From: Mortierella sp. BCC40632
Taxonomy: Eukaryota > Mortierellomycota > Mortierellomycetes > Mortierellales > Mortierellaceae
Reading direction: 5' to 3'
NCBI GenBank assembly: GCA_011634665.1
Contig: WAEK01000016.1
Span: 62,001-126,000 of the forward strand
Length of the DNA: 64,000 nt
The notes below the pieces were generated by a model. That model had not been told where the DNA came from, searched no databases, and worked only from the letters and a program-made list of their open reading frames with translations. The position numbers and the translations under genes were made by a program. Below are positions 3,143 to 50,167 of this stretch, in pieces (position 1 is the first letter of the stretch; each line of letters starts with the position of its first letter).

Positions 3143-3183
<41 letters not shown>

Positions 3184-7354: not shown

Positions 7355-7386
<32 letters not shown>

Positions 7387-8090: not shown

Positions 8091-8155
<65 letters not shown>

Positions 8156-9182
8156 GGATCTATATTGGCTTGTAAGCTCGCATGCTAAGTTTATGGCTCT
8201 TTTTCTTTTTTTCTTATAGGCTATCTTTCATGACAGGAAACTCGAAGCAGAGTTTGAGCCGGATAGGATTTTGTCCAACCGGCCCAAGTTTTATCAGGCG
8301 ATGAATAGATTGGTCCTCAAGAGACTGTTCATGTTGATCATGTTCCTTGACAAGGCCAAACAGGCCAAGCTGATTCAAACGGACCCATGCTTGTTCAACA
8401 AGGTAAAATATGTTTTAAAGCTCATCTCAATTGTTTTGATGGCATGAGTGTCACTCACAGCCTAACCACGTGTTTTTTCAATCACGTTTTTTTTTTTTTT
8501 TTTTTATTATTATGATGTTTTTAGGAATCAGAAGTCAAGTCCTGTAGAACATTGCTTGTGACGATATCCAAAAACTATCTTCTTGGCGAGGGAGACATTA
8601 TCCGACATTTGCTCTTTATGGGGTACTCGGTCGTGCATACCCAGACGGCCCTTGATGAGTTGGATTTTACTGTCAAAAACCTGGCTGTTGATTTGCGAGA
8701 TGGTGTTCGTCTCTGCCGTCTTGTGGATCTGCATTGTCCAGAGCTAAACTTGTGTCTGGTATGATTGTGCGTATGAATTGTGTTTACTTTTCTTTCTATT
8801 ATGCTCAATATCTAGGAAGAGGTGGTCCGAACCATCAACTAAATCGTGATACTTGCGTATGTATAAACTTCAAATAGAAAATGAAATTTCCCGCGCTATC
8901 CAAGGTCCAGATGCAACAAAATGTAGCACTGGCGACTAATGCACTAGTGAGGCAGGGCATTGCTATGGAAGGCACTCGAGGAGGTGTCGTCAATCCACGA
9001 GACATCGTCGAGGGACATCGTGAAAAGACTTTTGGTCTCCTCTGGAAATTGATCCTCAACTGGAAGGTTTCTGTTCTGTTGGATCTTCAAGTCCTGGAGG
9101 CCGAGATCGAGGCCTTGAAACAAGAGTACAGACGGATTCATGGTATCGATCAACCGGAACGTGTGGTAGGTGCAATATCTCT

Positions 9183-9213
<31 letters not shown>

Positions 9214-12200: not shown

Positions 12201-13399
12201 CCAGGTTCAAGGATACCTCGAAGACCGTGAACGGGCCTTGCAGCGTTGGGCAGAGGTGACGGTGTACTCCTTGGCTGCGATCCGTATTCAACGAAGCTGG
12301 CGACGATACCAGGATGCCAAGTGGGCCGAACTGCGTGAAAATGCAGCGATCTGGATCCAGCGTTGGTGGCGTCATCGGTTGGAGCTCATCGAAGCTGATC
12401 AATTACAGCAATTGGCAAGATTGATGCAAACTCAAATCAGGGGTGTACTAGCAAGACAACAGGCCATGCGCCGACTGGAGGCCATTGTGACAGTCCAAGC
12501 CTGGTGGCGAGGTAATCAAGTTCGACAAGAGTGTTCTGCCAAGGTGAAGGCAGCTCGTAAGAGAATCGAACATGCGAATGCGACCGCGGAAGAGCATATG
12601 AAGCTTGGAAATCGGACCACCATGGCATTGGATATCTTGTTGAGTAGTGGCCAGCTCTCAGCGGTTCTGAAAGCTTGTTATCATCTCGGTATGTATTATG
12701 TGTGTGTGTGTGGTTTGGGAATCACTACCAGCTTTTAGTCGGGAGAAAAATATGGGCACTAGCTCTTTGCGGATCAAAATATTTCATGATGACTGAATAC
12801 GGCTAACTTTCCCAACTTGTTTTTTTTTTTTTCTTAAAAAAAATGTGATAGACGTTGTTACAAGACTGTCCAAAAACAGTTGTCTTCGTCTTGTGGAGCA
12901 TAATGTGGTCAACATTATCTTTCAGTTGATCAAATCCTGTAATCGAAGCCAACCTCACATGGAAGTGTTGAAGCATGGACTCAATATTGTCGAGAACCTT
13001 TCTCGAGACCCAGACACCATTGGCTCCGTTTTTTGGGCACCTGAGGGAATGGAGATCCTCGTTGACTGTGCACAGGCTTATCGCGAGAACGAGCTGGTCT
13101 TTGAATCCGTAGTGACGATTCTGTTGCTTCATTTGGTAGAAGACCAAGATGAGAACCGTCGACGGGTCATGAGGTCAATGACACCAGAGGTCAAGAAACT
13201 CCGTGGTGTGTTGACTGTGATGGAGCGGAAGCTGGAACGAGAGGAGCGAAGTGGAGCTAGTCATCGTTCGACGGGGTCTGTCTCGAGCATTGGATCTACT
13301 AGGTCTGTGGTTATTGGTGGAAGCGCTGGCAACCGACCTGTTCGACTCTTGGTCTTGTCAGTCAACAAGCTTCGTCAGATTGTTGAACTTTTGAAGTAG
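6226..13399 (+). CDS. ASPM: ASPM (abnormal spindle) homologue
   Basis: Spindle-pole and microtubule minus-end protein of the ASPM/Asp family, which binds calmodulin through IQ motifs and acts in spindle focusing. I read ten exons: 6226-7230, 7395-8075, 8220-8402, 8525-8758, 8878-9165, 9312-9521, 9648-9816, 9926-10032, 10174-12688 and 12852-13399. All junctions are GT-AG and keep frame, giving 1,979 residues. Order of domains: Ser/Thr-rich N-terminus; ASH (ASPM-SPD-2-Hydin) domain at about 203-335; a linker region; two calponin-homology domains at about 630-725 and 798-955; about 30 IQ-like repeats at about 960-1790, of the type AAxxIQrxWRa; and a C-terminal ARM-like helical domain at about 1798-1979. 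This is the complete animal-type order. The intron 8759-8877 rejoins NLCL to KMKFPALSK, matching the CH1 core of animal ASPM. Intron 1 holds a run of about 35 A and intron 2 a CT microsatellite. The gene converges on COG1, with 219 bp between the stop codons. Confidence 0.95.
8096..8153 (+). repeat. (CT)n microsatellite in ASPM intron 2
   Basis: About 29 uninterrupted CT dinucleotides lie between the splice donor at 8076 and the acceptor ending at 8219. The tract is pyrimidine-rich on the coding strand and is likely length-variable. Confidence 0.95.
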
Positions 13400-18013: not shown

Positions 18014-19441
18014 CTACTCAGATTTCGGGCGGAGGTGGGCTGAGGGTACCACAGTGCTGGTAGTCATGTACCATGCTTCAGGCACCACATCCAGTTGCCG
18101 TCCAATGCTCCCGAAACACACTGAAGACGAATAGAGGATGCAAGGTATCCATGATCCAACGCCAAAAAAATCAGCCTTCGTGAAGCTATAATAGTAGAGG
18201 AAAACACAATTGTGAGCATTCTCTTCTTTTTTTTTTTTTCACCATCTATTTGATGGACAACAGAGGGGCAACGGAGAAGAGATGAGAGCGCAGTATTCTC
18301 TTACCTGTACCATCCATTGAGGACCAAGCAGTAGGCAATGATAGTTCCTGCCAATGCCACCGTGAACGAGATCATGAATCCATGGAAGGTGCGATCAAAC
18401 CAGAACCAGAGTCCAATAGAGATTAGGGCAAGTGTGCAAGAGACCTGAAGACTGGAGGTCCAGGGCAGTTTAGATGCAGCATAGTTGACGCCAATAAAGC
18501 CTCCGACACATCTATTATGGGATATGTAACAATAAATATTTTACAGGAAAATGGTGAGATCATGTGGGAAAGAAAGGGAGGGGGGGAGGGAGAGACTCAA
18601 ATATTCTGAGAAGGAGCCTTCCGAGGGGGTTTTCAAGGCACCGAACGAAACACAAGACGTCTTTCTGTCTTTCAAATGGGTTTAAGTTTTACCTCATCAC
18701 GCCGGACCAGTCTCGGTTGCCTCGGACAAGCACAATGCGTCGACCGTGCCCTCCCCACCAAAGATAGTCTCCGAGAGGGTAGATGGTCCCAATCAGAACA
18801 GCAGACAGACCGCAGGTTGGTGGGAGCCATGAAGCCGTCTCCCAGAGCTGTGATATATTGTTCGGGTACTCGACCAGATGGTGGCTCGTTTGGAGATGAT
18901 CGACAATCAGCGAGAAAACAAAGCCAAGCATAAACAGGATCAACGCTCGGATGGGATAGTAAAGTGAGATGGGTACGTCAAAGACATAGAGATAGGGTCC
19001 TTCGGAGACAAGCCGGAAGCCTTGTAAGATGGTCAAGAGTCCGATATACTGATCATCATCTTCCTCGGACTCGCTTTGGGTCTCGCACCAGTGTTGTTGG
19101 TTGGAGAATGGTAAGGATTCAGCAGAAGCGGTTGTGGGCGATGCGGGGGGTGTTGTAACAGTAGTTGTAGTAGTAGTAGTGGTGGTGGTTACGGTGGTGG
19201 TAGTGGTGGTAGTGGTGGATTGGGCTGCACCGGAAGGAGTTGGACGGTACAGGGCAGCGGTTGACTGAGGCGGAAGAGCATATTGCGAAAGGGATGTAGA
19301 AGAGGCGGATCGAGACAACGAGGAGAAGAGCAAGTCGTCGTGAGGCATGGTCAGGTCAAGGTCCATGGTGAAATTAGAGTCTTGAGAGAATGGAGCGGTG
19401 AATGCAGCGGTGGGTGGGGCAGACTCAGTCGATGTGGACAT
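18014..19441 (-). CDS. INSIG: INSIG-domain ER membrane protein
   Basis: Insulin-induced-gene family protein of the ER membrane. In animals INSIG holds SCAP-SREBP in the ER and promotes sterol-dependent HMG-CoA reductase turnover; in fission yeast Ins1 regulates HMG-CoA reductase. Three exons (19441-18693, 18511-18305, 18185-18014) give 375 residues. Residues 1-125 are a low-complexity cytosolic leader with a threonine tract at about 75-98. From about 160 onward there are about six hydrophobic helices. Recognisable blocks are the WLPPTCG segment, the NRDWSGVMRC segment, SIGLWFWFDRT, and a C-terminal SWIPCI...GSIGRQL block. The Asp in FWFDR (about residue 289) corresponds, by counting from the C-terminus, to the juxtamembrane Asp205 of human Insig-1 that SCAP binding needs. 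The reading frame crosses seven T in a row at the DFFG site without disruption. The pathway partner is inferred, not seen. Confidence 0.9.
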
Positions 19442-21457
19442 GTGTTGCCAGAGTAGGCGGGTGGAGATGGGAAGGGGACGACGGAGAGAAAAGAGGAGAG
19501 AAATAAAAAGGCGGGGAGAGGAGAGGAATGCGAACAGGCGATGGGAGAGAGTGGGGAAGAGAAAGAAGGAGAGAGAGGGAGAGAGGGAGTATATGTATGT
19601 TGGACTAATGGGGACGGGAGAGTGAGAGAGAAGTGATGGCGCAGCGGGAACCAGGGAACATCCATCCCCTGTCTGTGTTCTGGGCCGCTTCTCTCACTCT
19701 CCTCTCCCTCTCCACACACTTTCGCTCGCAGTCATATGATACCAACTTGGACACAAAATAAGGTTGTCCTATTTTGTGCCCGCGCGCTCAGCTTCATTTT
19801 GTTTGCTGGCTTTGCCCTGTGCCTGCATGAATTGCTTACCTTTGTCGCCCCTCCTGACCCTTCTAGGGGTTGGTGGCCAGCCCTAGTGCGGTCAGCCGCC
19901 CCCTGGAGCTGTCGCATCATTCCCATGGTTTCTCTCGCTTTTTTTTTTTTTTTTTTTTTTTTGGGCATTCGAAAGATGGAGAAACCACCATCTGCATCCC
20001 ATCTTGAGAGCCATTTGTCCATCCGGCTGTGGCAGGCGACTGCTCATGAACATCGTGACAATGGCCAAAAATGAATACCGACTTTTCTTAGAATCTAGAG
20101 TAAAGAGCCATCTCTTCGGCCAATCTACATTCTCCAACCTTCTCTAGAAAAGGCTTTTTTTTTTTTTTTTTTTTTTTTGCCAGGTCCAGACATGGGTCTT
20201 CCTAGAACCCCTCTTTCGGACGCTGCCTTTGACACCCGGGTTTAGTATGGTCTACAAGGAGTTGATTTCGGTGAGTTGGTGCACTATTTGATCGGGACGT
20301 ACAAATAGGGTATCAGAAACGACCTTGCCGGTTCCATCTTTGTCAAGTTGAAATCGTATTCATGCAAATGACTCCATTGAGCGTGCCTATACCCTTGTCA
20401 ATCTGGGTTGTATTGGGGAATGTTTGAGAGTTATGTGGTTGATGAGCTCGGCGAACTTCTGTCCATTCAATTAGGTTATCTGTGTCCTGAGGACATGTGC
20501 AATAGTCATTTACTGCTGATCGCAAGGTATGAAGTTGTGGGATAGGGAAAGGGCTGCTTGCGCCACTATCCTCTCGCGACTTTGTAGCCAGCTGAAAGGT
20601 CGCTATTTCGACTTGGAGGGATTTCTAGGGAACAGGAAGGCAGAACTTGATAAGTGATCATAAGTTATTCACTCTCAACACAGTCCGCGAGGACACAACT
20701 CCAACTGCAGAACTAAGAGTTTTTGTGCCCCCTCCACCTGGACACACTGGGACTTTTTTTTTTTTTTTTTTGCATTAACAGCTAAGAAAGTAGACCAATG
20801 ACAATCAAGCTGCACAACCCTTCACGAAGAAAGGTTCAATAGGCTGGATGAGTGGATCTCGGGATGAAACTGGAGCGCCTCAGCAAAAAAAAGAAGAAAA
20901 AAAAAAGGACCAGGGAGGATACTACACTCCTATGCGCAGTAATGCACTTTCACGCCTACAACTTATCGAATTTTTTTTAACCTCAAGGGAACACAATTGG
21001 AGTCCTGGACCATAAATCAGGACATGCCCAGTTCAACTTTGACGAACCATGGTGGTTGAGCATGGAAGGCGTAGAACTGGAAATCTCCCTCCCCCCTCTT
21101 CTCGGGCTCGCTTTTTTGTGCCCTTCTCCCACCCCTTCCCCTTTTTCAAACAAAAAAAAAAGGCGAAGCCCAAATCGTTATTGTACATTGTTAAAGGTCG
21201 AAAGGATCGTTGTGCTAAATTGGTCATGCATTGAAAGTCTTTCTTGCCTGGTATACAGACCACAAAAAATTGAAGAAACAAATGATAAAAAACAACAAGG
21301 AAAGGAAAGGAAAAGAAAGAAAGAAAAAAAAATACAAACACAAAAGGTATACTAGAATTCACTGAACACAAGTGACAGATTGCTACAAACAAAACAAAAA
21401 TAAATAAAAAAAATACTACTACTACTACTACTACAAGATAGATACCACACGGATTCA
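19442..21457. other. Intergenic spacer between INSIG and the histidine kinase gene
   Basis: About 2 kb upstream of INSIG and downstream of the histidine kinase stop. The first 200 bp above the INSIG ATG are GA-rich on the plus strand, so CT-rich on the coding strand, as in other leaders here. T runs lie near 19940-19962, 20157-20178 and 20756-20771. I see no convincing coding exon or RNA gene. Short open frames at 21033-21461 are antisense to a low-complexity A-rich 3-prime region. Confidence 0.6.
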
Positions 21458-24400
21458 TCAATACTTTTCTGGGAGGAAACCCATGGGTTCTTGGCCTGGA
21501 CTAAAGCTAGCCCGGAGGTGTGAAAAATCCAGATAAGGATCGTTCTGTACAATGTCTGGACAGTTCTTGGGTGGGAACTTGTTGATTGTCGCAATCAGTT
21601 CGTTTGTCCGAAGAGGCTTCGTGATGTACTCGTCCTAGCAAAAAAAAAAAAAAAATAGTCAGACTTGAGTTAAAATTGCTCCGCAACCCCATTTTTTGAC
21701 TCTGTCCACTTTTTTTTCTCTCTTACCATTCCTGCAGCAAGACACTTCTCACGGTCTCCAATCATTGCGTGCGCTGTGAGCGCAATAATTGGCAGACGGT
21801 TGGCTCGGCTATTTGTTGCCTCGATCTTGCGAATCTCTTGAGTCGCCTCGAATCCTCCCATAATAGGCATTTGGACGTCCATCAGGATAAGGTCAAAGTG
21901 TCTACTATCAAAGTACTCGACGGCCATTTTTCCATTGGCAACAATCGTGACCTTGTGCCCAAACTTCTCAAGGATCCTCACAGCCAATTTTTGGTTCACC
22001 ACATTGTCCTCGGCAAGCAAGATATGGAGAGGGATCGAATGCTCAGCATCCGAAAACTGTGTCGAAGTTGATTCGAACGCCGGCAGGAGTGCATTCATCA
22101 GATCTGGTAGTTGCACTGGCGGGTTAAAGTAACTGACAATGCCAAGGTCCTGACAATCCCACATTCGGATATAGGGTGTGGTCATAGAGAGGAGCACGAT
22201 AGGGAGGAACCGAAGCGTGGAAACATCCTTAACGATCTTAATGTCCTTCACGCGCTCCACTATTACCACATCAAAGATAGACTTTTCTTGTCCTGACGAG
22301 TTGTTCGACGACGTGATCAAAGCAGCCACTTGATCCAACGAGGCCACAAGTGTTGCCTTGAATCCAAGCTCTTCCAGTGTCCTCATTACCGTGGTGGATG
22401 TGTTCTTGTCTCGCATCGTGCCCAAGTACAAAATATGGCGTCCAAGGTAAGGCTTGATCTTTAAGTTGATCTGATCGGGAGACATGGTGCCTGTGTTAAA
22501 CCGTACTGTAAAGAAGAACTGAGAGCCCTTTCCGAACATACTGTTCACCCACAGATCGCCTCCCATCAATGTGACCAGCCGCTTGGAGATGGACAAGCCC
22601 AAACCGGTACCTCCGTACTTGCGTGTGGTCGATCCATCAGCCTGGCAGAAGGTATCAAATACCACCTCGATCTTATCACTTGGAATACCAATTCCTGTAT
22701 CCGAAACACAGAACTGGAGCTCGACTCCATTGTCCGTCTTGTGTTTACAGAAGCAGTCCAGAACCACACTGCCCTCCGTCGTGAACTTGATAGCATTGCC
22801 AATCAGATTCGTAATGACCTGACGGAGTCGCAGAGGATCGCCTACAAGCTGATCAGGGAAGTCGTTGTCAACATTGTAGATCAGATTGAGCTTTTTCTGG
22901 TTTGCTTTGACGGCCAATGTCTTTAGCACTCCAAACGCCTGTGTTCGAAGTGAGAAGGGTGCCTGTTCAATCGTCATCTTTCCAGCCTCGACTATAGATT
23001 AAAAAAGAAAAAGAAAAGAAAAAAGGAATCGGTAAAGATATAAGCATTGTAAACACGAAATGCAGGCAATGCATAGGTACTGCAGGACAGTACACCGCGT
23101 CCACATACTCTTAGAAATGTCGAGAATATCGTCGATAATTGTCAACAAAGAGTGAGCCAAATGACTGACAATCACAAGGTTGTCGCGCTGCTGTCGAGAC
23201 AACTCCGTCTCTAATGTAAGACTTGTCATTCCGATGATACCATTCATTGGGGTACTATTACAGATAGAGGGTCAAAGAAGAGTGTTAGAGAGTTAAAAGT
23301 CAACTAGTCCACCAATTCAATCAAATCAACTGAAGTTGCCCATACCGAATCTCGTGGGACATATTCGCAAGGAACTCAGACTTGGACCGATTAGCTAGCT
23401 CGGCCGCCTCACGAGCTGCTGTATTCTTCTGAATACTCTCTCTCAAATTGTAGACCATCTGGTTAATCTTTGTCTTGAGTGAATCCATCTCCCCCGATGC
23501 CTCCACTGTGATAAACTGCGTAAAGTCACCGTCAGTGGCTGCACTCGAGATCGAAGCAAAGGCTCGCACTTGGGCAGTCAGGTTGGCGGCCATCGTGTTC
23601 ACGTTGGAGGTGATTTCCTTCCAAGTACCTCTGACATCTTCAACCTGAGCCTGGACACCAAGACGACCTTCCGTTCCGACCTCACGAGCAACACGCGTCA
23701 CCTCATTGGCAAACATTGATAACTGGTCCACCATAGAGTTGATAGTATTTTTGAGATCCAACATTTCACCCTTGACATTGACTGTGATCTTCTTGGTCAA
23801 GTCTCCCATCGCGACAGCCTTACTGACATTAGCAATGTCTCGAACCTGTGTTGTCAGATTGGCTGCCATCGTATTGACATTGTCCGTCAACTCTTTCCAT
23901 GTTCCATCAACACCTGCAACTTCGGCTTGTCCTCCGAGCTGACCTTCAGTTCCGACCTCGCGAGCGAGTACTGTGACCTCGTTGGCAAACATTGACAATT
24001 GGTCCACCATTGAGTTGATCGTGTTCTTGAGATCTAGAATCTCGCCCTTGACATTCACAGTGATCTTCTTGGTCAGGTCTCCCATCGCCACTGCCTTGCT
24101 GACATTCGCAATATCTCGAACCTGGGTCGTCAAATTGGCCGCCATCGTGTTGACATTGTCTGTCAGCTCCTTCCACGTGCCTCCAACATCCTCGACCTCA
24201 GCCTGACCTCCAAGCTTGCCTTCTGTACCGACCTCGCGAGAGACTCGAGTGACCTCGGCTGCAAAAGTTCGGAGCTGCTCGACCATGGAATTGACCGTAG
24301 TCTTGAGTTCTGAGATCTCGCCTTGTGCTTGGACATCAATGGTCTTGCTCAGATCTCCCTTGGCGACAGCTGTAGTGACCTCGGCAATAGATCGCACTTG

Positions 24401-27400
24401 GGTCGTCAGGTTGGAGGCCATGGTGTTCACATTGTCCGTCAGTTCTTCCCACGTTCCACTGACACCCTTGACCTGAGCCTGTCCACCGAGTTTACCCTCT
24501 GTTCCGACTTCACGAGCGACACGAGTGACTTCGGCAGCAAAAGTACGGAGCTGTTCGACCATGGAGTTGACAGTCTTCTTGAGCTCAAAAATCTCACCCT
24601 GGGCTTCAACATCAATCTTCTTGCTCAGGTCTCCAGCTGCGACAGCGGTTGTGACCTCGGCAATGGATCGCACTTGGGTTGTCAAGTTCGAGGCCATGGT
24701 GTTCACGTTGTCCGTCAGTTCCTTCCATGTTCCGCTGACATCCTTGACTTGAGCTTGTCCTCCCAGTTGTCCCTTGGTTCCGACTTCAAGTGAGACACGA
24801 CTGACCTCAGTGGCAAACTCCTGGAGCTGATCGACCATAGAGTTGATGGTATTCTTGAGATCCAGCATCTCACCCTTGACGTTGACTGTGATCTTCTTAC
24901 TCAAGTCTCCCTTTGCGACAGCCTTACTCACATCGGCAATATCTCGAACCTGAGTGGTGAGGTTGGAGGCCATTGTGTTGACATTATCCGTCAACTCCTT
25001 CCAGGTACCGTCGACTCCCTTCACGTGTGCCTGGCCACCTAGTCGTCCTTCCGTACCAACTTCACGAGCGACACGAGTGACTTCGGCAGCAAAAGTACGG
25101 AGCTGCTCGACCATGGAATTGACAGTTTTCTTGAGCTCAAAAATCTCACCCTGGGCTTGGACATCAATCTTCTTGCTCAGATCACCGCATGCGACAGCAG
25201 TCGTGACCTCGGCAATGGATCGCACTTGGGTTGTTAAGTTAGAGGCCATGGTGTTCACGTTGTCCGTCAGCTCTTTCCAGGTACCACTCACATCCTTGAC
25301 CTGGGCTTGACCTCCAAGTTTGCCTTCGGTTCCGACCTCGAGTGAGACACGAGTGACTTCAGTAGCAAATTCTTGGAGCTGGTCTACCATGATATTGATC
25401 GTGTTCTTGAGGTCCATCATCTCACCATTGACGTTGACAGTAATCTTTTTGCTCAAGTCTCCTTTGGCGACAGCCTTGCTGACATTCGCGATATCTCGGA
25501 CCTGAGCTGTCAAGTTGGCTGCCATGGTGTTGACATTATCGGTAAGCTCTTTCCATGTGCCATCAACACCCTTGACTTGTGCTTGTCCGCCAAGTCTACC
25601 CTCTGTTCCTACTTCGCGAGAGACACGAGTGACTTCGGCAGCAAACATTCGAAGTTGTTCGACCATGGAGTTGACAGTCTTCTTGAGTTCAAAGATCTCA
25701 CCCTGGGCTTCAACATCAATCTTCTTGCTCAGGTCTCCAGCTGCGACAGCGGTTGTGACCTCAGCAATGGATCGCACCTGAGTTGTCAAGTTCGAGGCCA
25801 TGGTGTTCACGTTGTCCGTCAGTTCCTTCCATGTTCCGCTGACATCCTTGACTTGAGCTTGTCCTCCCAGTTGTCCCTTGGTTCCGACTTCAAGTGAGAC
25901 ACGACTGACCTCAGTGGCAAATTCTTGAAGTTGGTCCACCATAATATTGATCGTGTTCTTGAGATCGAGCATCTCTCCATTCACATTGACTGTGATCTTC
26001 TTACTGAGATCTCCTTTAGCGACGGCATAACTGACACTGGCAATATCTCGGACTTGAGCCGTCAAATTAGCAGCCATGGTGTTGACGTTATCAGTCAGCT
26101 CCTTCCATGTTCCGTCCACTCCCTTGACTTGTGCTTGACCTCCAAGGCGTCCCTCTGTACCGACCTCACGAGCGACACGTGTGACCTCTGCTGCGAACAT
26201 TCGAAGTTGTTCGACCATGGAGTTGACGGTTTTCTTGAGTTCAAAGATTTCTCCTTGTGCTTCGACATCAATCTTCTTACTTAGGTCACCAGCCGCGACG
26301 GCAGTCGTGACCTCGGCAATCGACCGTACCTGAGTGGTCAGATTTGAAGCCATAGTATTTACATTGTCAGTCAATTCTTTCCAGGTGCCGCTGACGTCCT
26401 TGACTTGGGCTTGGCCTCCCAATTGTCCTTTGGTTCCGACCTCGAGTGAGACACGACTGACCTCCGTAGCAAATTCTTGGAGCTGGTCTACCATGATATT
26501 GATCGTGTTCTTGAGATCCAACATCTCACCCTTGACATTGACAGTAATTTTCTTGGTCAGGTCTCCCATCGCTACAGCCTTACTGACATTCGCGATATCT
26601 CGGACCTGGGCTGTCAAGTTGGCTGCCATGGTGTTGACATTATCGGTAAGCTCTTTCCATGTGCCATCAACACCCTTGACTTGTGCTTGTCCCCCAAGTC
26701 TACCCTCTGTTCCTACTTCGCGAGACACACGAGTGACTTCGGCAGCAAACATTCGAAGTTGTTCGACCATGGAGTTGACAGTCTTCTTGAGTTCAAAGAT
26801 CTCACCCTGGGCTTCAACATCAATCTTCTTACTTAGGTCACCAGCCGCGACAGCAGTCGTGACCTCGGCAATAGATCGCACTTGGGTTGTCAGATTTGAG
26901 GCCATGGTATTGACATTGTCTGTCAACTCTTTCCAGGTACCACTTACATCCTCGACTTGGGCTTGGCCTCCCAACTGTCCCTTGGTTCCGACCTCAAGTG
27001 AGACACGACTAACCTCGGTCGCGAACTCCTGGAGCTGATCGACCATGGAGTTGATGGTGTTCTTGAGATCGAGCATTTCTCCATTCACATTAACTGTAAT
27101 CTTTTTACTCAGATCTCCCTTAGCGACGGCCTTACTAACGCTTGCGATATCTCTCACCTGCGCTGTCAGATTGGCTGCCATGGTGTTGACATTGTCTGTT
27201 AGTTCTTTCCATGTGCCTCCGACATCTTCGACCTCAGCTTGACCTCCAAGACGTCCCTCGGTTCCGACTTCACGAGCAACTCGAGTGACTTCCTCAGAGA
27301 AGGTAGACAATTGATCAACCTAAGCATATACAGGATATTTTTGGTATATAATGTGTAAAATGATAAAATAAAGCGCATTGATTAGCCTGCGACAATAAGA

Positions 27401-30400
27401 GAGAGAATGGCAGCACACAAGAAGAGAGAAGAGATATGCTTACCATGATGTTGATGGTATTCTTCAAGTCCAGAATCTCACCCATGGCATCGACCGTGAT
27501 TTTTTGGGTCAGATCACCCTTTGCCACTGCTTTACTGACATTGGCAATATCGCGCACTTGTTTAGTCAAGTTGGCTGCCATTGTGTTGACATTGTCGGTG
27601 AGTTCTTTCCAAGTTCCGTCGACACCAGCGACCTCAGCTTGTCCTCCAAGTCGTCCCTCTGTTCCGACCTCTCGAGCTAGTACCGTGACTTCATTGGCGA
27701 ACATCGACAGCTGGTCCACCATGGAATTGATGGTATTCTTGAGATCCAACATCTCACCTTTGACATTGACGGTAATCTTCTTACTGAGATCTCCTTTGGC
27801 GACAGCATAACTGACACTGGCAATATCTCGGACCTGGGCAGTAAGATTAGCAGCCATAGTGTTTACGTTGTCGGTCAATTCTTTCCATGTGCCTCCGACA
27901 TCTTCCACTTCTGCTTGACCACCAAGTCGTCCTTCTGTGCCGACTTCACGAGCGACACGAGTGACCTCCTCAGAGAAGGTAAACAATTGATCCACCTAGT
28001 AGAAAACGGAATTTTCAGAAAATCAATGAAATGAGCTACAAAGCACTTGCGAATTAAATTATAATGAAAATAATAGCTCTCTATGAGAGTAAAAAGTCCT
28101 TACCATGATATTGATGGTATTCTTCAAGTCCAGAATCTCACCCATGGCATCGACCGTGATTTTTTGGGTCAGATCACCCTTTGCCACTGCTTTACTGACA
28201 TTGGCAATATCACGAACTTGTTTTGTCAAGTTGGCTGCCATTGTGTTGACATTGTCGGTGAGTTCTTTCCAAGTTCCGTCGACACCAGCGACCTCAGCTT
28301 GTCCTCCAAGTCGTCCCTCTGTTCCGACCTCTCGAGCTAGTACCGTGACTTCATTGGCGAACATCGATAGCTGGTCCACCATGGAATTGATGGTATTCTT
28401 GAGATCCAACATCTCACCTTTGACATTGACGGTAATCTTTTTACTGAGATCTCCTTTGGCGACAGCATAACTGACACTGGCAATATCTCTCACCTGCGCT
28501 GTCAGATTGGCTGCCATGGTGTTGACATTGTCTGTTAGTTCTTTCCACGTGCCTCCAACGTCTTCGACCTCGGCTTGACCACCAAGTCGTCCTTCTGTGC
28601 CGACCTCACGAGCAACACGAGTGACCTCCTCAGAGAAGGTAGATAATTGATCCACCTAATTTCAGAATGCACAAGATGATGTTAGAATGCGACATAAAAG
28701 CATAAGAGAGGATTGATTAGCCAGCATCGAAAAAGGAAGTTTTCCAGAAGGATAGAGAGCGCTTACCATGATGTTGATGGTATTCTTCAAGTCTAGAATC
28801 TCGCCCTTGGCATCGACTGTAATCTTCTGGGTCAAATCCCCCTTGGCGACAGCCTTACTGACATTAGCAATGTCTCGAACCTGTGTTGTCAGATTGGCTG
28901 CCATCGTATTGACATTGTCCGTCAACTCTTTCCATGTTCCATCAACACCTGCAACTTCGGCTTGTCCTCCGAGCTGACCTTCAGTTCCGACCTCGCGAGC
29001 GAGTACTGTGACCTCGTTGGCAAACATTGACAATTGGTCCACCATTGAGTTGATCGTGTTCTTGAGATCTAGAATCTCGCCCTTGACATTCACAGTGATC
29101 TTCTTGGTCAGGTCTCCCATCGCCACTGCCTTGCTGACATTCGCAATATCTCGAACCTGGGTCGTCAAATTGGCCGCCATCGTGTTGACATTGTCTGTCA
29201 GCTCCTTCCACGTGCCTCCAACATCCTCGACCTCAGCCTGACCTCCAAGCTTGCCTTCTGTACCGACCTCGCGAGAGACTCGAGTGACCTCGGCTGCAAA
29301 AGTTCGGAGCTGCTCGACCATGGAATTGACCGTAGTCTTGAGTTCTGAGATCTCGCCTTGTGCTTGGACATCAATGGTCTTGCTCAGATCTCCCTTGGCG
29401 ACAGCTGTAGTGACCTCGGCAATAGATCGCACTTGGGTCGTCAGGTTGGAGGCCATGGTGTTCACATTGTCCGTCAGTTCTTCCCACGTTCCACTGACAC
29501 CCTTGACCTGAGCCTGTCCACCGAGTTTACCCTCTGTTCCGACTTCACGAGCGACACGAGTGACTTCGGCAGCAAAAGTACGGAGCTGTTCGACCATGGA
29601 GTTGACAGTCTTCTTGAGCTCAAAAATCTCACCCTGGGCTTCAACATCAATCTTCTTGCTCAGGTCTCCAGCTGCGACAGCGGTTGTGACCTCGGCAATG
29701 GATCGCACTTGGGTTGTCAAGTTCGAGGCCATGGTGTTCACGTTGTCCGTCAGTTCCTTCCATGTTCCGCTGACATCCTTGACTTGAGCTTGTCCTCCCA
29801 GTTGTCCCTTGGTTCCGACTTCAAGTGAGACACGACTGACCTCAGTGGCAAACTCCTGGAGCTGATCGACCATAGAGTTGATGGTATTCTTGAGATCCAG
29901 CATCTCACCCTTGACGTTGACTGTGATCTTCTTACTCAAGTCTCCCTTTGCGACAGCCTTACTCACATCGGCAATATCTCGAACCTGAGTGGTGAGGTTG
30001 GCGGCCATTGTGTTGACATTGTCAGTAAGCTCCTTCCATGTACCGTCCACACCAACGACTTTGGCTTGACCTCCAAGGCGTCCTTCCGTTCCGACTTCAC
30101 GAGCGACACGAGTGACTTCGGCGGCAAACATCCGAAGTTGTTCGACCATGGAATTGACCGTTGTCTTGACCTCAGAAATCTCACCCTGGGCTTGGACATC
30201 AACCGTTTTACTTAGATCTCCCTTGGCGACAGCTGTAGTTACTTCAGCAATGGATCGCACCTGAGTGGTCAGGTTCGCTGCCATGGTATTGACATTGTCC
30301 GTCAGCTCTTTCCACGTGCCGCTCACATCCTTGACCTGAGCTTGACCTCCAAGCTTTCCCTCTGTACCGACTTCACGTGCGACACGAGTGACTTCTGCTG

Positions 30401-31689
30401 CGAACGTTCTTAGTTGTTCCACCATTGAATTGACGGTCTTTTTGACTTCTGAAATTTCGCCCTGGGCTTCGACGTCAATCGTCCGACTCAAATCTCCTGC
30501 GGCGACAGAGGTGGTGACCGCAGCAATTGACCGCACTTGTGTTGTAAGATTTGAGGCCATGGTGTTGACATTGTCTGTAAGCTCTTTCCAAGTACCACTG
30601 ACATCCTTAACGTGCGCCTGACCGCCGAGTTTGCCTTCAGTTCCTACTTCGAGACTTACACGACTGACCTCGGTAGCAAACTGCTGTAACTGGTCGACCT
30701 AATAAGACGAATACTGCAGGTCAATTCAAGGAATTCTGTAATCTTCTATGGACGCCTTTCGGCATAAAAAGCCAGAGTAATGCTTACCATGATATTGATT
30801 GTGTTCTTGAGGTCCATCATTTCGCCATTAACATTGACAGTGATCTTCTTGGTCAAGTCACCCATAGCAACAGCCTTACTGACATTGGCGATGTCTCGCA
30901 CTTGAGCAGTCAAATTGGCAGCCATCGTATTAACATTGTCCGTCAGTTCCTTCCAGGTACCATCGACACCCTCGACCTCAGCCTGTCCTCCAAGTTTGCC
31001 TTCTGTACCGACCTCGCGAGAAACTCGGGTGACCTCAGCAGCAAAAGTTCTCAGTTGGTCTACCATTGTGTTCATTGTTTCCTTCAAATCCAAGATTTCG
31101 CCCTGAACCGGTACCCGGACTTTCTTGGTCAAATCGCCGGCAGCAACGGCCTTGCAGACCGTTGCAATGTCACGGACCTGGCCCGTCAGATTCGAGGCCA
31201 TCAAGTTCACATTGTCGGTAAGTTCCTTCCAGGTACCGCTGACATCCTTGACGCGGGCCTGCCCGCCCAGTTTACCCTCGGTACCGACTTCAAGACTGAC
31301 ACGACTAACCTCGGTTGCAAACTCCTGGAGCTGATCCACCATGATATTGATCGTGTTTTTCAGGTCAAGCATCTCTCCTTCTACATCGACTGTGATCTTT
31401 TTGCTGAGATCGCCTTTGGCAACTGCCTTGCTGACACTGGCGATATCTCGAACCTGAGCCGTCAAATTAGAGGCCATGAGGTTGACGTTGTCAGTCAGCT
31501 CCTTCCAGGTGCCATCGACACCCTTGACATGGGCTTGACCACCAAGTTTACCTTCGGTACCGACCTCGTGCGCTACTCGAGTCACCTCGGATGAGAACGA
31601 TCGCAGCTGATCAACTATCAGTGAGGATAAGAAACAATCGTGTAAAATGAAACGTCTGGTTAGTCAAGGTTTGCTCTGTAGAGAATATC

Positions 31690-31721
<32 letters not shown>

Positions 31722-32720
31722 GTATGCATGTGCATACATCACACATTGATGCACAAAATCCCTTGTACACAAACACACGCACAAACACACACACACACAC
31801 ATACGCCCGTTCAGAACTCAGAAACATGCAAAAAGGCCCAGAGAACTAAACGCCCTCACTTTTTTCCACCCTTTCACCCTTGTCTCCTCTTTTCTTGAGA
31901 AAAGAGGCAAGAAATCCTGGCATCCTTGACTCTCCCCTGGCATGAGCCGGTAAGAAGCAAATGATTACTGCATTCCCGAAGATATGCCATGCAGTTTCTC
32001 TCGCACTTCTTTTCTGTGATGGCCTGGCGCATATCGGGCGCGGTTGCCCGACAAGTCAAGGGGCGAGGAGGGGGGGCAAAGAGAGAATGAGAGAGAAGGG
32101 GCAGATGGGGTGGGTGGTCGCGCACAAACTCATGCATGGCCGAGATATCTCCCTCTCTTATTTTTTTTTTCCTTTCCAGCCATGTCCTTGACATACAATG
32201 CATGTTATTTCGCCAACATTGGGACACAAGGGTTGGATGAAAACATAAAAGGGGATTTCACGAAAGATGCAAAAAAAAAAAAAAAAAAAAAAAAAAGAGA
32301 CGGACGGACGGACGGTCCGGTTGTTCCAGCTCGATTATGCTCGCTTTCTTCCTCCTCCCCCTTCTCGAGAGAGAGATATCGTAGGAACACAGTACATGAG
32401 CAATATGCATCCATGGTCGTTCAGGACCTTGGGGTTGACAACGATTGCCGATAGACGATTGCCGCTATGTGTCTGTCGCTCAAACTGTCACGCTTTTTTC
32501 CTGCACCGCTACTGTCACCAAATTGATGCCGTTACTGTCACTGTAGACCGACGACATTGTACATGGGCCTCTTTTCCAGACACCTGTTGTTCGTTCACTG
32601 TTTTTTCTCATACGTTCGTGTACCCAAATCCCTTCTTCTTTTCACGCTCTTTTTTTCTCTCACTCTCTCTAACTCTCGCTTGTTCTTTTGGCACTATTCC
32701 GAACCACAAAAAAAAAAAAA

Positions 32721-32777
<57 letters not shown>

Positions 32778-34478
32778 GAGAGAGGAGAGAAGGAGAGAGA
32801 GAACTGTCACAGCCACCACACCAAACAACCTACCCATGGTGTTGATCGTATTCTTGAGAACCAAAGTCTCGCCCTTGACAGAGACCGTAATCTTCTGGCT
32901 CAAATCTCCATGTGCGACAGCCGTACAGACACTGGCGATATCCCGGACTTGCTCCGAATACCCTTCGGTCATCGTGTTCAAATGACTGACAAACTCTTTC
33001 CAGATCCCGCGTTCGTCCTTAAGTCGGGCCTGGACCCATTTGCCCTCGACGCCCTGTGCTGCCACACCAATCACCTCCTCTGTAAATGTTGACACCTTGG
33101 CCACCATCGCATTGATGGACATTGTCAGTGCTGAGGTGTTGCATAAATCGTTCACACATTCGATACGGTTGCTCAAGTCGCCTGCTGCCACTGCCGCCGC
33201 GACGGACGCACATCGACGGACACATTCAGCGCACGGCGCTTGTTCGTTGCCCTGGTCCCGCCTCGAGACTGTGGTGGGGCCCTGCGACAGGGCTGTGGTC
33301 GACCGATGGTTCGGATCTAATAATACTCGTGTCGACGCTGTCGTCGTAGTTGTCTTTGTGGTCGTTGCCGCTGTTGCTGTTGTTGTTGTTGTTGCTGCGG
33401 CGGCGGCTACTACGACTGAGGCACTGTTCTGTGCTGCTGCTGCCGCTGCTGCTGCAGCTGCGCTATCAGTGGACTCCATGGAGGAGAAAGGGAAAGAGGT
33501 AATGGAGGGGGTCCGCTGAGACTCCCCTTCGTAGACAAAGTCCGGGACTTGAGTAGGTAATGTAAGCGACGATGAGCTAAAAGAGTTGGGATTCGTGTCC
33601 AGCAAGTCTGAACAAGCAGAAATGAACGAATCGGGTGATGAAGGCCCAGAAGCAATATCGCCAGAAGCAGTGATGGAAAGAGTGGTAGGATGGAGAAGAT
33701 GAGTGTGATGTATGATGGGACTAGACGAGGAAGAAGCACTCTGGCCCAGGATAGGAATGGTCAAAGGTGCTGGAGCTGCAGAGGTTCTGAATCGGGAAAT
33801 GCTGGTTGTCGAGCTCTGTTGTGCATGACCAATGGCAAAAGAAGAAGGAAGACAGGAAGAAGAAGAAGAAAAAGAAGAAGGAGAAGAAGGAGAAAAGGAA
33901 GAAAAGGAAGAAGTTGTGCTCTGTTCAGCTGCGAAGGGAGATAAGGAAAGGATTGCAGGGGGTGTATGGGGAGCAATGCCTGTGTTTGTGCTGCCTCTGA
34001 TTCTCCTATTGCAACTGTTGTCGCTGTTGTCCGACGCTGTTTGCGGTCTCAAGACGTACAGAGTTGCATTGGCCGCCTGGTCCGAGAACCCCCAGGCAGG
34101 GGGTCCGACTGGTGCTGGCGCAGGAGTGGCAGTCGTTGTAGCGGCAAGTGAGGCGGTGAGCGAGGGGATCGGGGGAGGAGAGTGCGAGTCGACCGGTGGA
34201 GTGAGGATTGGTGGAGCAAGAGCAATATCCAGGGAAGGATGGCTCACACCACAGCCTCGGTTCTGTAGAGCAGTAACCTTGCGGAACTGGGCCAGTTCCT
34301 GCTCCATGGCAAATATCCGACAGGCAACTTGGTGCAAGGTGCGATCAAGCTGAATGGTCAGCTCAGATGGCGACTCTGCAAAGTCGGGCAGGGAGCAAGG
34401 GTCGATTGGCCGATCCTGGGCAAGGATCTCGAGAATGCTTCCGACATGGCCGATGTAGGCCTCAGTGACGGAGGCCAT
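21458..34478 (-). CDS. NIK1: Giant poly-HAMP group III hybrid histidine kinase (Nik1/Os-1 type)
   Basis: Cytosolic sensor kinase of the fungal group III class, which feeds the Ypd1 phosphorelay in osmotic and fungicide response. Nine exons: 34478-32834, 31614-30788, 30698-28767, 28655-28104, 27995-27444, 27319-23346, 23254-23109, 22991-21727 and 21634-21458; every junction is GT-AG and in phase, giving 3,689 residues. Residues 1 to about 420 are Ser/Ala/Thr-rich. A tandem array of 30 HAMP units of 92 residues follows (about 423-3125). Next come a HisKA domain with [15 protein letters not shown] (phosphohistidine about 3158), a HATPase domain with N-box NLIGNAIKF and G-boxes DTGIGIP and GGTGLGLSI, a degenerate linker, and a receiver domain with LLAEDN, phosphoacceptor LMDVQMP (Asp about 3581) and a TKPL lysine. 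The catalytic set is intact. Relatives usually have about 5-9 HAMP units and 1,000-1,300 residues. Five introns fall at the same HAMP boundary. Intron 1 is 1,219 bp, ten times its siblings, so the first-exon join is the least certain. Confidence 0.95.
23811..24966 (-). repeat. Copy 1 of a 1,156-bp perfect internal duplication
   Basis: Read line by line against 28846-30001 at a constant offset of 5,035 bp, I find no mismatch across the copy. Identity stops sharply at both ends (first differences just below 23811 and at 24967). It lies in the distal part of exon 6 and covers about 4.2 HAMP units, so it is not a whole number of units. Confidence 0.85.
27444..28655 (-). repeat. Twin two-HAMP exons (exons 4 and 5)
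   Basis: Exons 28655-28104 and 27995-27444 are both 552 nt, both encode two HAMP units, and differ at only scattered bases (for example VDQLSTF versus VDQLFTF). The 108-bp intron between them and the 124-bp intron after exon 5 do not look alike beyond the splice sites, so the exons are conserved while the introns have diverged. Confidence 0.85.
28846..30001 (-). repeat. Copy 2 of a 1,156-bp perfect internal duplication
   Basis: Located in exon 3. It matches 23811-24966 base for base by eye, while flanking HAMP units of the same gene differ at many synonymous positions. This points to recent copying (unequal exchange or gene conversion) or to a collapse or misjoin in assembly. Confidence 0.85.
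32708..32773. repeat. Poly-A plus (GA)n tract in kinase intron 1
   Basis: About 22 A followed by about 22 GA units on the plus strand. On the kinase coding strand this is a CT tract followed by poly-T, shortly after the intron 1 donor at 32833. Confidence 0.95.
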
Positions 34479-39420: not shown

Positions 39421-40003
39421 ATGACAGCAATCGCTCCCCCACTACAACCTCTGCCCCAGTCGCAGTCACAGTCCCAGCCATACGCGGTCACATCGAACGG
39501 TGCTGTTGCTGCCGTTACTGACGAACCCATGCTCGAGCCAGGATCCTCAACTGGTTCGGGCAGCGGCGTCCCTGACTTTGTCAAAAAGCTCTACAGGTAA
39601 CTTTTCTCTCTCTCTCTCTCTCTCTTTTAATCAAGTGTCCCTTTTGTGTGTAACGGAAAAGAGAGAGAGAGAGAGAGAGAGGAAAAAAAAAAAAAAAAAA
39701 AAAAAAAACGGTCGCTGCGAAAGGAGAAGGACTGAAAAGAAGGGACCGAAGGAGGAGAGCAGACGCTAGTTTGAGCATGGCACATGGCCAGCCTTGATTC
39801 CTTTATTAGCTACATGTGTTAGGAAAGGGGGGAGTCCAACAGCCTTCCGACAGTGCAGCAATCTTCTCTGTCTACTTGACATTTCCTTTCCCTCTCCCCC
39901 TTCCCTCCTCGGTGTGTGTGTCGCAGAATGTACAGGGTTTTTCCTCTAGTGGTGTAGGATGCATCTGCAGCCACAGAGAAACAGAGAGAAGCTCTATCCC
40001 CTT

Positions 40004-40040
<37 letters not shown>

Positions 40041-42978
40041 TCCCCTAGTCCAAATACTTTATCATTTTAGAATGGCCTGGGTCCCCTGCCATACCCACAC
40101 ATCCCACATATCATTACTGCACCTCCCCCACAGACATTCTTGCCCCAACTTCACACGTGCCCTTCTATCCCTTCAATCTTGACCACACTGTATTTTTTTG
40201 TTCTGTTTTGTTTTTTTTATTAGAAAAGAAAGGGAGGAAAGGGGGCAATTACGTTTGTGCAGAATTCGTTCTGTTGGCTAATACATACGTTGTCGTTTGC
40301 ACCTGCGCGACCTGCAGAATGTTAGAAGAAAAGGAGCACGACTTGATAGTCTCATGGGGAAAGACAGGCGAGACTTTTGTGGTCAAGGAACCGAACGAGT
40401 TTGCCAAGTTGATCCTTCCAAAGCACTTTAAACACAATAACTTTGCGAGCTTTGTCCGCCAGCTCAACAAATATGACTTTCACAAGATCAAGACCACAGA
40501 AGACTCAGTCAAGCCGTATGGTGATCAAGTATGCGACGCAATACACACATACACACACACACACACACCGTCCGCTTACACATCCACACATACACGTGTC
40601 CATACGCAACACTTTTTCCGAGTCTATAGCATCTCACACTCTTCTTGATCTCTTCATTTCTTCATCTTAGGCTTGGGAGTTTCAACACCCGAAATTTCAA
40701 GTGGACAAACGAGATCTCCTCGAGGACATCAAGGTAAATTCCACTTGCCATTCTCACCCCATCTTTATAGATTGATACATCCATCGCCTCTAGAGAGCTG
40801 TCTTCATTGTCTGACAGCTTACTATTTTCTGCAATAGCGCAAGACTCCAAGCAACAAAAAGTCTCAATCTGTTGCGTCAGCCAACGCAATGGCGGATTGT
40901 CAGGCGTCGCTACCAGAGGAATACCAGGCCCAATTGGCACAAATGCAGTTGACCCAAACTCAAATGCAAGCAGAACTTGAACAATGTGAAGCAAGGATCA
41001 CTGCTCAGGAGCGGTTAATTCGACAACTCCTCACACTTGTTGGCGTTTCTTGTACAGGTAAAAAAAAAAAAAAAGACCACCAAGTCATCATTGGCGATAA
41101 TATACTTACTCTCCCCTTTGCAATGAAATTAGCGGATGGAACTCTTGTACGAACCGATTCAACTGATTCAAAGGATATTATCATGAGAACCGCATTTTCA
41201 CCATCGTCCAGTCCGTCGTCAAGCCCTCATCCACCACAGATGCAGCAGATGCAGCATGGCATGAATGGACTCCAAGTCGCCAACGGGGTACCCTTGACCC
41301 CTTCCTCGTCGCCCTCAGAAATGCATTCAGTCCTCTCGATACAGTCTCAGCAATGCTCCCCAGATGCAAAGACCATGGCTACTTCGGCTACTCAGGCCAT
41401 GTCCTCGTCCGGTCTCCATTTCACGCCGACTCAGCCCCAGCCTCATATCCAGTCAGGTGCACCTACAACAACCGTAGCCTATAGTCGAGAGTTGTACCAT
41501 CTTCCCATGATGTGTCAGGATCCAGGTCTAGGTCTCCCTACCATCTCTTTGAGCCATCTCACAGCAAAGAGACAAGCTGAGAACGCGAAGGGAACAAGAT
41601 CCAAGGCTGCTGCGGCTCGAGCACGGATTGCGGCCCAGAAGCAGGAAGAAAAACGACAAAAGACCTTGCAACAAGAACAAGAGCAACAGCAGCAACAAAA
41701 GCAAGAACAGCAAAAACAGGACCAACAGGTTCAATACCTGACAGAGGTGATGAATCACGATAATAGCAACATGATTGTCCATCGAACTTCAAGCTCGAAC
41801 TCGACAACTCCTACTTGGACTATGCCTCCCAAGGTGCTCTTGGTCGAGGATGATGACACCTGTCGACGATTGAGTGCAAGGCTCTTGCAAATCTTTGGAT
41901 GTCCTTTTGATGTAGCAGAAGATGGCGTGGCAGCTGTTGGCAAGATGAGCCATCAAAAATACGATATTGTTCTGATGGTAAGTTCAAATATCGTGGTTGT
42001 TGTTGTTGTTGTTGTTTAGCCCTACTTGATTTATTTTACGGAATGACATTTTCTGACAACAGAACCCTTCTCTCCCTCCCTCCCTCCCTCTCAAATCATC
42101 AGGATATCATGATGCCCAAATTGGATGGAATTTCTGCGACAAGTCAGATCCGACAGTTTGACATGATGACACCCATCATCAGTATGACCTCCAACACCAC
42201 TACAAACGATATTTTGACTTATTTTGCGACAGGCATGAACGATATTCTGGCCAAACCCTTCTCAAAGGCTGGATTGCTCAACATGCTTGAAAAGCATTGT
42301 CAACATCTCCGGTACATCAAATTGAGCCCTCAGCTATTGGCTAACTCTACCCTGGGATCCTCATCGGGCTCTTCGTCGTCTCCATTGAGCTTACTTGGCT
42401 CTGGAGCAGTTGATATGTCAGGAGGTGCGCTGGCCATTGGAACAAATATCAACCGTCTGCATGTCATGTATCGAACCATTGATAGCGACTTTAGCAATAG
42501 TAGAAATGATGGTGGGTCCGATGGACAGGATACGAACAACACGAACGGAATCATTGAGTTGCCAATGGACGGCTATAACGGACAGAATCAGGAGACGCTT
42601 CAGCTTGTCAATGGTGAAAAGCAATGCCCTAGTGATAGGACAACCTCATCTATTTCAACTAATCCATCACAACAGCGACAACAACAGCCGAGGACCGCTA
42701 TGGAATCCATGGGTCTTGGACTGAATATTGGAATGGGGGTTATGATGTCTATGCTTGATAACTCTAATGGTAATAACATGGGTTCTGGCGGAGAGAACAC
42801 TATGTTTGGATCTTCAGTCAACGGATCACAGCCACAGCAACAGTCGCTCCAGAATGGGCTAAAGAATGGAATGGATGCTGGAGATGTAAGTGAAAATGCC
42901 CAGAACACGCACTCACAACATCTCCAGAATCATCACCACCCACACATGCCTCATTCCCAGCAACAGCAACAGCAACAA

Positions 42979-43067
<89 letters not shown>

Positions 43068-43122
43068 ACAACAACAACAACAGCAACAACAACAACAACA
43101 GCAACAACAACAACAGCAACAA

Positions 43123-43157
<35 letters not shown>

Positions 43158-43926
43158 TCATCAACAGATGCAACGCCAGGCACAAATGATGGGAATGCAC
43201 CATCGGAATACTCTTTCATCGACTCTGCCCGCAGGAGCAACGATGAACCCAATGTCCACGATACCTGATACTACCACCCAGGTCTCTTCAGGGATGATCT
43301 CACCACCGCTTTCAATGAGCGGTAGTAGTGCTGGCGGATCCGCTGCCTCATCTGCTTCATCTTCGTTGTCCACTGCCCCATTGATGTCGTATCCGTTTGG
43401 ACTGCCTTCTCAACAACAGAAGCCTCAACAGCCGCCTCAACCACAGCAACAGCAACAGCAACAACATCAGACGTTGCCTTTTCATCATGGAGCGAGTCAA
43501 GGTCCCACGACACTGACACTCATGCCATCAATCAAACCCGAGACGATGCAACTAAACCAGGCCCCAGGGTTTGCGGGTTCTCATCCACATCATACCCACA
43601 CGACACCACAACAGCAAGCGTGCTTCCAGTCACCGTCCCAAGCACCTCTTTCGCAGGGTCATTTGTCGATGCCACCTCGCCCTCCACCTCCACATGCAAA
43701 TGGACATGCTCATGCTCATCCTCCTCATGGCCAACCGTTGAACTTGGGGATGGGGATGAGTATGGGTATGTCTATGGGTCTTGGGGGTGGACTAGATCCC
43801 ACGACAGGAGGAGCGGCAGGACCAGGGATGGATCCGATGAGTCTTGGGCAAGCCATGGGTCCGGCCTCGGCCGGAAATAGCAACGGAGGTCGACGGAAAC
43901 GACCAAAGTTGGAGTCCTTGGAATGA
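39421..43926 (+). CDS. SKN7: Skn7/Prr1-type response regulator transcription factor
   Basis: Nuclear response regulator that combines an HSF-type DNA-binding domain with a receiver domain; in fungi it takes phosphate from Ypd1 and drives oxidative-stress and cell-wall genes. Exons: 39421-39596, 40318-40528, 40671-40733, 40838-41057, 41133-41977 and 42103-43926, giving 1,112 residues. The HSF domain covers about 46-150 (FVKKLYRMLEE, then [15 protein letters not shown]). A coiled coil rich in Gln follows at about 165-210. The receiver domain is at about 460-580: VLLVEDDD, phosphoacceptor LMDIMMP (Asp 506, first residue of the last exon) and KPFSK. A tract of 66 uninterrupted glutamines and a Gln/Pro/Gly/Met-rich tail to a basic GGRRKRPK end follow. 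The start is the first ATG in frame with the HSF domain. The candidate intron 41058-41132 has no stop and is a multiple of three, so a 1,137-residue unspliced form is possible. Confidence 0.94.
42958..43155 (+). repeat. CAG/CAA tract encoding 66 glutamines
   Basis: 198 bp of mixed CAG and CAA codons, without interruption, within the last SKN7 exon after the receiver domain. Antisense frames read as poly-Leu and poly-Val and are not genes. Confidence 0.97.
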
Positions 43927-50009: not shown

Positions 50010-50167
50010 CCTGAGTCGAGAACCTAGTGTGTGGATGAAACAGGGCAGGGCATCTTAATTATCGCTGGCTCTGTAACACTTCTTTTTCTTTTCTTATGTT
50101 CGTCTGAGCTGAGTATTAGAGTGTACTGGGGAAGCAAGTGAAAACTTCCTCATTTCCACCCTTCGCT

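Follow-up and report, generated by a model that had tools for sequence, protein, structure and literature searches.

The group III hybrid histidine kinases of fungi (Nik1, Os-1, Bos1, TcsC) combine tandem HAMP domains with HisKA, HATPase and a single receiver, the HAMPs numbering a handful in accounts from ascomycetes; class III kinases are described with five to six HAMP repeats (PMC3418262), the models of group III signalling rest on five or six HAMPs (PMC3418262), and a C-terminal receiver with a D-D-K signature is given as a trait of the group (PMC4965123), as far as these accounts go. The gene described here, k16, encodes 30 such domains; it lies in a window of 64,000 nucleotides from Mortierella sp. 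BCC40632 (contig WAEK01000016.1, C16:62001-126000; assembly GCA_011634665.1, 49.9 Mb in 62 contigs), and positions without a contig name refer to this window. Taken jointly, the observations are probably best explained by a group III hybrid kinase of a Mortierella-like fungus, with a giant N-terminal poly-HAMP rod, that relays to an HPt protein and response regulators.

As for the gene, k16 is one spliced open reading frame, running from an ATG at 34478 to a stop at 21458, with 11,070 coding nucleotides and no internal stops (Table 1). The original prediction, made from the sequence alone, had given these coordinates, the length of 3,689 residues, nine exons and 30 HAMPs, all of which proved correct on the re-derived gene model; its description of the exons as in phase is right for five of the eight introns (introns 2-5, all between array units, and intron 8, phase 0) and wrong for introns 1, 6 and 7 (phases 1, 2 and 1). 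All eight introns are GT-AG, and seven measure 89-124 bp, the first being far longer.

Regarding the array, the anchor Trp residues are exactly 92 residues apart in 28 of 28 intervals, giving 29 repeats; of the 30 tandem 92-residue units proposed earlier, the number thus stands for the canonical HAMPs, while complete units number 29 and the leading HAMP is degenerate. A purpose-built profile made from the units of k16 recovered 30 canonical modules, as expected from such a scan, plus 29 divergent ones; the database size was fixed, since E-values scale with set size and canonical counts may otherwise shift by one between runs. Pfam, run exon by exon at E 0.01, returned 27 PF00672 and 29 PF18947 stretches, and its lower canonical count is probably due to HAMPs cut at exon ends and to some degenerate ones. 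Many other Pfam hits in the array (spectrin, syntaxin, IL10, ATG17 and others) were taken for coiled-coil noise. Units 2-28 have a median pairwise identity of 77% in amino acids and 72% in DNA, with a ratio of nonsynonymous to synonymous substitution (dN/dS) of 0.078 and silent sites that are saturated (median dS 1.6, over the 271 pairs, of 351, for which dS is finite); therefore, the array is not a product of chance, and its units are under purifying selection. The head that precedes it resembles, at its start, the start of some other Mortierellomycota gene models.

Past the array, the HisKA, HATPase_c and Response_reg domains all exceed the Pfam cut-offs, and the kinase and receiver motifs occur once each, with the expected receiver residues and all five kinase boxes (H, N, F, G1, G2) in place, so that this set is intact, as had been proposed. 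The D-D-K signature of the receiver reads LLAEDN, LMDVQMP and YITKP. As to the cytosolic location, free of transmembrane helices, that marks the group, a scan of hydropathy, and of hydropathy only, gave a single 19-residue window at or above 1.6, located within HisKA. The kinase tree was built first on 63 rows, 9 others having failed the H-box pattern, and then on 65 selected rows, with 7 long-branch rows removed and those 9 added. By kinase domain the nearest relatives of k16 are Mortierellomycota, and it groups with fungal kinases annotated as Nik1 or osmosensor, such as CnNIK1, in a tree that contains no experimentally characterised ascomycete Nik1. The earlier assignment to the Nik1/Os-1 type is upheld by the N-terminal tandem HAMPs, the HisKA H-box with HATPase_c, the receiver and the grouping in the tree; judged by these sequence features, k16 is a group III hybrid histidine kinase, and an addition to a known family, one associated with the HOG pathway and the fludioxonil response.

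Table 1. Features of the k16 locus and of the adjacent regulator gene (window positions).
Feature	Position	Strand	Basis or detail
Giant group III hybrid histidine kinase gene k16 (assigned by sequence; 9 exons, 3,689 aa)	21458..34478	-	spliced translation, Pfam
k16 exon 1	34478-32834	-	gene model
k16 intron 1, simple repeats inside	31615..32833	-	1,219 bp
k16 exon 2	31614-30788	-	gene model
k16 exon 3	30698-28767	-	gene model
k16 exon 4, units 12-13, 552 nt, phase 0 both ends	28655-28104	-	gene model
k16 exon 5, units 14-15, duplicate of exon 4, phase 0 both ends	27995-27444	-	gene model
k16 exon 6	27319-23346	-	gene model
k16 exon 7	23254-23109	-	gene model
k16 exon 8	22991-21727	-	gene model
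k16 exon 9	21634-21458	-	gene model
N-terminal head, aa 1-418, Ser/Thr/Ala/Pro-rich	33225..34478	-	composition
Degenerate leading canonical HAMP (30th counted)	33105..33224	-	HAMP profile
Array, 29 repeats of exactly 92 aa (aa 457-3124), broken by introns 1-5	23456..33110	-	Trp-anchored repeats
HisKA region (aa ~3143-3210), introns 6 and 7 inside	22990..23401	-	Pfam, motifs
HATPase_c domain	22498..22842	-	Pfam
Receiver domain spanning intron 8, end approximate	21580..22023	-	Pfam, motifs
1,156-bp exact repeat, copy 1	28846..30001	-	DNA self-comparison
1,156-bp exact repeat, copy 2	23811..24966	-	DNA self-comparison
Skn7-type response regulator gene (6 exons modelled, 1,112 aa)	39421..43926	+	HSF DNA-binding domain and receiver

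As for the nature of the repeat, the canonical half of the 92-residue unit is recognised as HAMP by Pfam; the divergent half was recognised in 0 of 6 cases, and when compared with HAMP by hhalign it reached E 0.11, with one of five shuffles scoring better. The divergent half aligned with an Aer2 chain only jointly with the canonical half. The best matches of a structural model of two units are the crystal structures of the Aer2 poly-HAMP (3lnr, 4i3m and 4i44), and in this model, a monomer of moderate confidence, helix-connector-helix modules are stacked as in 3lnr. By this model, Aer2 would share stacked HAMPs with k16; it differs in having three HAMPs, in belonging to a bacterial chemoreceptor, and in sequence, with 10-14% identity in the structural alignments. 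The entries 9trk and 9trj match the array by sequence and are not among the matches listed in the structure searches. A first AlphaFold2 model, with 12 window rows, had a predicted local distance difference test score of 46.9 and was set aside. The two-unit model suggests that each 92-residue unit pairs a divergent with a canonical HAMP, for ~59 HAMPs in k16 overall, and its match to the Aer2 structures lends support to the extended rod imagined in the original prediction.

Such a rod could work as follows. In a parallel dimer, ~59 four-helix bundles would stack to a length of ~130 nm, an estimate based on the helices of the model. Conformational switching of the bundles, started by a change in the head or anywhere along the rod, would reach the DHp helix and there set the balance between kinase and phosphatase activity. 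Phosphate would then leave the His for the Asp of the receiver; an HPt protein would take it up next and hand it to response regulators, perhaps the adjacent Skn7-type protein among them. The most likely signal, by likeness to group III kinases and poly-HAMP receptors as far as these are treated in PMC3418262, PMC3570549, PMC11253588 and PMC12077210, is an alternation of bundle conformations passing down the rod. The genome has two matches to HPt, one of which lies in a frame with the sequence FLKGSSAALG. During evolution, register and end units would be tightly kept, and the middle would grow and shrink through copying of two-unit exons and of multi-unit blocks.

The same genome holds relatives of k16. 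Searching the assembly for the HAMP family yielded at least 59 matches, all at four loci: k16, a second giant kinase on contig C7 (k7; 28 units, at least 3,405 residues), and two truncated copies. The kinase domains of k16 and k7 are 84% identical. The first codons of k7 (L010 7869-8000, C7) are not open in the assembly, by decay or sequencing error, and k7 was read only beyond them. One truncated copy (L009, C7:2188.6-2190.9 kb), ~14 kb upstream of k7, has four clear and one weak HAMP matches, and looks recent because its intron 1 is in parts identical to that of k7; its frame stops at the position of the H-box. The other (L013, C19:164-167 kb) has eight HAMP matches. None of the 16 HisKA matches of the genome lies near either truncated copy, and no short Nik1-like kinase is among the HAMP matches listed.

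Outside this genome, 242 proteins were surveyed, namely the best 120 of 7,999 and the best 120 of 7,997 scored, plus k16 and k7; such listings are weighted towards high scorers and set length ranges, and the group medians, which cover the 139 proteins assigned from record names, are not unbiased averages. The spacing between neighbouring canonical HAMPs is exactly 92 in 3,023 of 3,256 cases. Median canonical counts are 34.5 in Kickxellomycotina (n=10), 26 in Dacrymycetes (n=3), 24 in Mortierellomycota (n=14), 21 in Mucorales with Umbelopsis (n=43), 17 in Agaricomycetes (n=16), 10 in Glomeromycotina (n=9), 8 in chytrids (n=6), and 7 in Ustilaginomycotina with Tremellomycetes (n=20). Arrays of at least 20 are common in Mortierellomycota, Mucorales, Kickxellomycotina and Dacrymycetes, and occur in 68 of the 242 proteins. 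Another 23 Mortierellomycota records in these listings (within P0121-P0236) measure 688-1,633 residues; they look like cut gene models, not short kinases, because each of the 23 starts within the array itself.

How such arrays change can be read from the units themselves. The longest exact DNA repeat in the array of k16 is 1,156 bp without a substitution, the second-longest being 143 bp, and it suggests recent copying. Exons 4 and 5 are 99% identical in protein, hold two units each and have phase 0 at their ends; therefore, whole-exon copying would be one route of array growth. Unit positions were compared in ordered, non-independent pairs among selected proteins, namely 11 from Mortierellomycota, 16 from Mucorales and 6 from Kickxellales. 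The last unit had its unique best match at the same position in 110/110, 238/240 and 30/30 comparisons, respectively. At the N-terminal end, a test without offset is confounded by whether the degenerate first HAMP is counted, and offset-fitted values were used: units 1-5 keep their position in 31-56% of the Mortierellomycota comparisons and units 6-10 in 1-7%; Mucorales hold units 1-5 in place in 79-98% and drop to 15-16% by units 9-10; and Kickxellales give 17-63% for the first five units and 0-30% for later ones. Since positional matches are more frequent at the ends than in the middle, the array turns over in its middle and is kept at its ends, most strictly in the kinase-adjacent unit, and this argues that the exact length of the array is loosely constrained.

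This pattern bears on the alternative that survives best, for which the chances are close to even: array length may be a neutral by-product of unequal exchange, so that any number of units beyond a handful would work and 30 would be functionally meaningless, a proposal compatible with a poly-HAMP kinase of the kind described above. It draws on the loss of positional identity of the Mortierellomycota middle units from about unit 6, on the exact 1,156-bp copy, and on the range of 5-41 canonical HAMPs across the group-assigned proteins; moreover, on the 65-row tree the label long (at least 15) versus short needs eight changes, at least four of them forced by well-supported branches, and therefore array length changed several times. 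However, all 14 long-form Mortierellomycota proteins carry 21-31 canonical HAMPs, the 23 short records of the same group begin where cut models would, and the units keep their 92-residue pitch under purifying selection, although drift in length is compatible with all of these points. The alternative raised in the original prediction, that length tunes osmosensing or buffers fungicide action, is improbable: HAMP mutations do change osmotic and fungicide responses in Botrytis Bos1, as reported in PMC3418262, but the loose conservation of the middle units speaks against an exact tuning length.

Slightly less probable still is an inflation of the repeat count by the assembly. The 1,156-bp repeat lacks any substitution, although silent sites have reached saturation in most unit pairs; however, this block covers only ~4 of the 29 units, with nothing beyond 143 bp as the next exact repeat, the two other contigs examined span 2.8 and 1.0 Mb, and there is a 28-unit paralog on a separate contig as well as a Mortierella alpina relative with 31 HAMPs. 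Given this saturation between units, an assembly echo does not explain the array as a whole; inflation looks limited, with at most ~4 units resting on the 1,156-bp repeat. Finally, that exon 1 or the kinase part is transcribed separately, as two or more genes, is very unlikely: intron 1 is indeed far longer than the others and the 23 short records exist, but the latter all start within the array, every splice site of k16 is canonical, and the junction of exons 1 and 2, across which one HAMP begins and continues, recurs at the same position in k7 (intron ~284 bp) and as joined protein sequence in the gene models of 6 of 11 relatives, the pattern being unmatched in the other five.

The kinase gene has as its neighbour a Skn7-type response regulator gene placed head-to-head with k16, with 4.9 kb between the start codons; the longest frame in between has 226 codons and is of low complexity. 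The last exon of the Skn7-type gene (42103-43926) contains a long poly-glutamine run. The duplicated locus on C7 shows this same orientation: the truncated kinase copy there is divergent to a Skn7-type gene with HSF and receiver pieces (~C7:2173.3-2176.1 kb, minus strand; one stop within its receiver match), and k7 is divergent to a remnant that retains HSF but lacks a receiver piece (C7:2191.9-2192.3 kb, minus strand), at kinase-Skn7/HSF distances of 10-13 kb.

Co-location in other genomes was judged from contig sizes in protein listings (for clusters, the longest), with Linnemannia elongata AG-77 counted separately from other strains. Kinase and Skn7 are on contigs of identical size in 4 of the 28 organism entries with both genes listed, when random placement in 50-Mb genomes would give ~0.5: Linnemannia elongata AG-77 (1,195,173), Mortierella hygrophila (38,885), Gryganskiella cystojenkinii (73,994), and Basidiobolus meristosporus (130,707; one of three kinases and one of three Skn7 listed). 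The other 24 entries, including Entrophospora sp. SA101, which alters the random expectation by less than 0.001, share no contig size, and many of those contigs are short; among the copies listed, Linnemannia hyalina, Cokeromyces, Lichtheimia, Powellomyces and Mycena kentingensis are real negatives on long contigs. It is thus only tentatively, and with clearly less assurance than for the kinase itself, that we propose the giant kinase and Skn7 as an anciently linked, divergent two-component pair, bacterial-style in a eukaryote, with the kinase transmitting through a register-locked rod of ~130 nm, constant at its ends and free to vary the length of its middle from species to species. If the linkage holds, Skn7 would be the likely output of the kinase, and an unusual eukaryotic sensor-regulator pair would have been kept together.

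The window contains other genes. On the plus strand, 6208-12735 carries an ASH domain and IQ motifs in adjoining frames, and looks like a gene for an ASPM-type spindle protein; on the minus strand, 18692-19693, past the 3' end of k16, encodes an INSIG-like protein, and ankyrin repeats are present in a 1,027-aa frame at 46974-50054.

In conclusion, arrays of 20-40 HAMPs occur in several early-branching lineages and in Dacrymycetes, nearly all at the 92-residue pitch, and they offer a naturally varied length series of HAMP stacking for testing models of signal relay. HAMP counts based on annotation would be too low because database models often cut inside the array, as in all 23 of the short Mortierellomycota records. 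The pattern of fixed pitch, fixed ends and free middle, and the possible ancient pairing with Skn7, are points of added interest. A literature search turned up no description of giant HAMP arrays from early-branching fungi, although older poly-HAMP papers may hold high counts.

Compared with known systems, the 92-residue unit is shared with bacterial poly-HAMP hybrid kinases from Bradyrhizobium (P0106) and Acidobacteriota (P0107), which have 15 and 18 canonical HAMPs; they differ from k16 in their extra PF13185/PF01590 (GAF) domains and in a kinase domain that is distant in the tree. Hybrid kinases with a poly-HAMP array of the 92-residue type are also listed for the amoebae Balamuthia and Polysphondylium (P0157, P0229), where canonical HAMPs number 10 and 8. 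The Mortierella alpina protein EC968_005523 (P0003, 3,638 aa) has the architecture of k16, with 31 canonical HAMPs and 78% identity over 99% of the query; it is named a hypothetical protein, and most of its middle units are unmatched by position to those of k16, with incomplete unit extraction. The giant poly-HAMP hybrid kinases of Kickxellales, recorded as histidine kinase osmosensor, and their relatives (P0001, P0002, P0012, P0014, P0017) have 32-41 HAMPs, are 58-64% identical to k16 in the best local alignment, and have, in the ones examined, a longer stretch from kinase box to receiver. The claim that k16 has one of the longest HAMP arrays of any kinase therefore holds loosely, and a record length is ruled out: arrays of at least 20 being common, nine of the 242 proteins exceed 30, with eight from Kickxellales, namely Linderina (41, a partial record with the 92 spacing in 23 of 40 intervals), five Coemansia (32-39), Martensiomyces (35) and Kickxella (34), and the ninth being that of Mortierella alpina.

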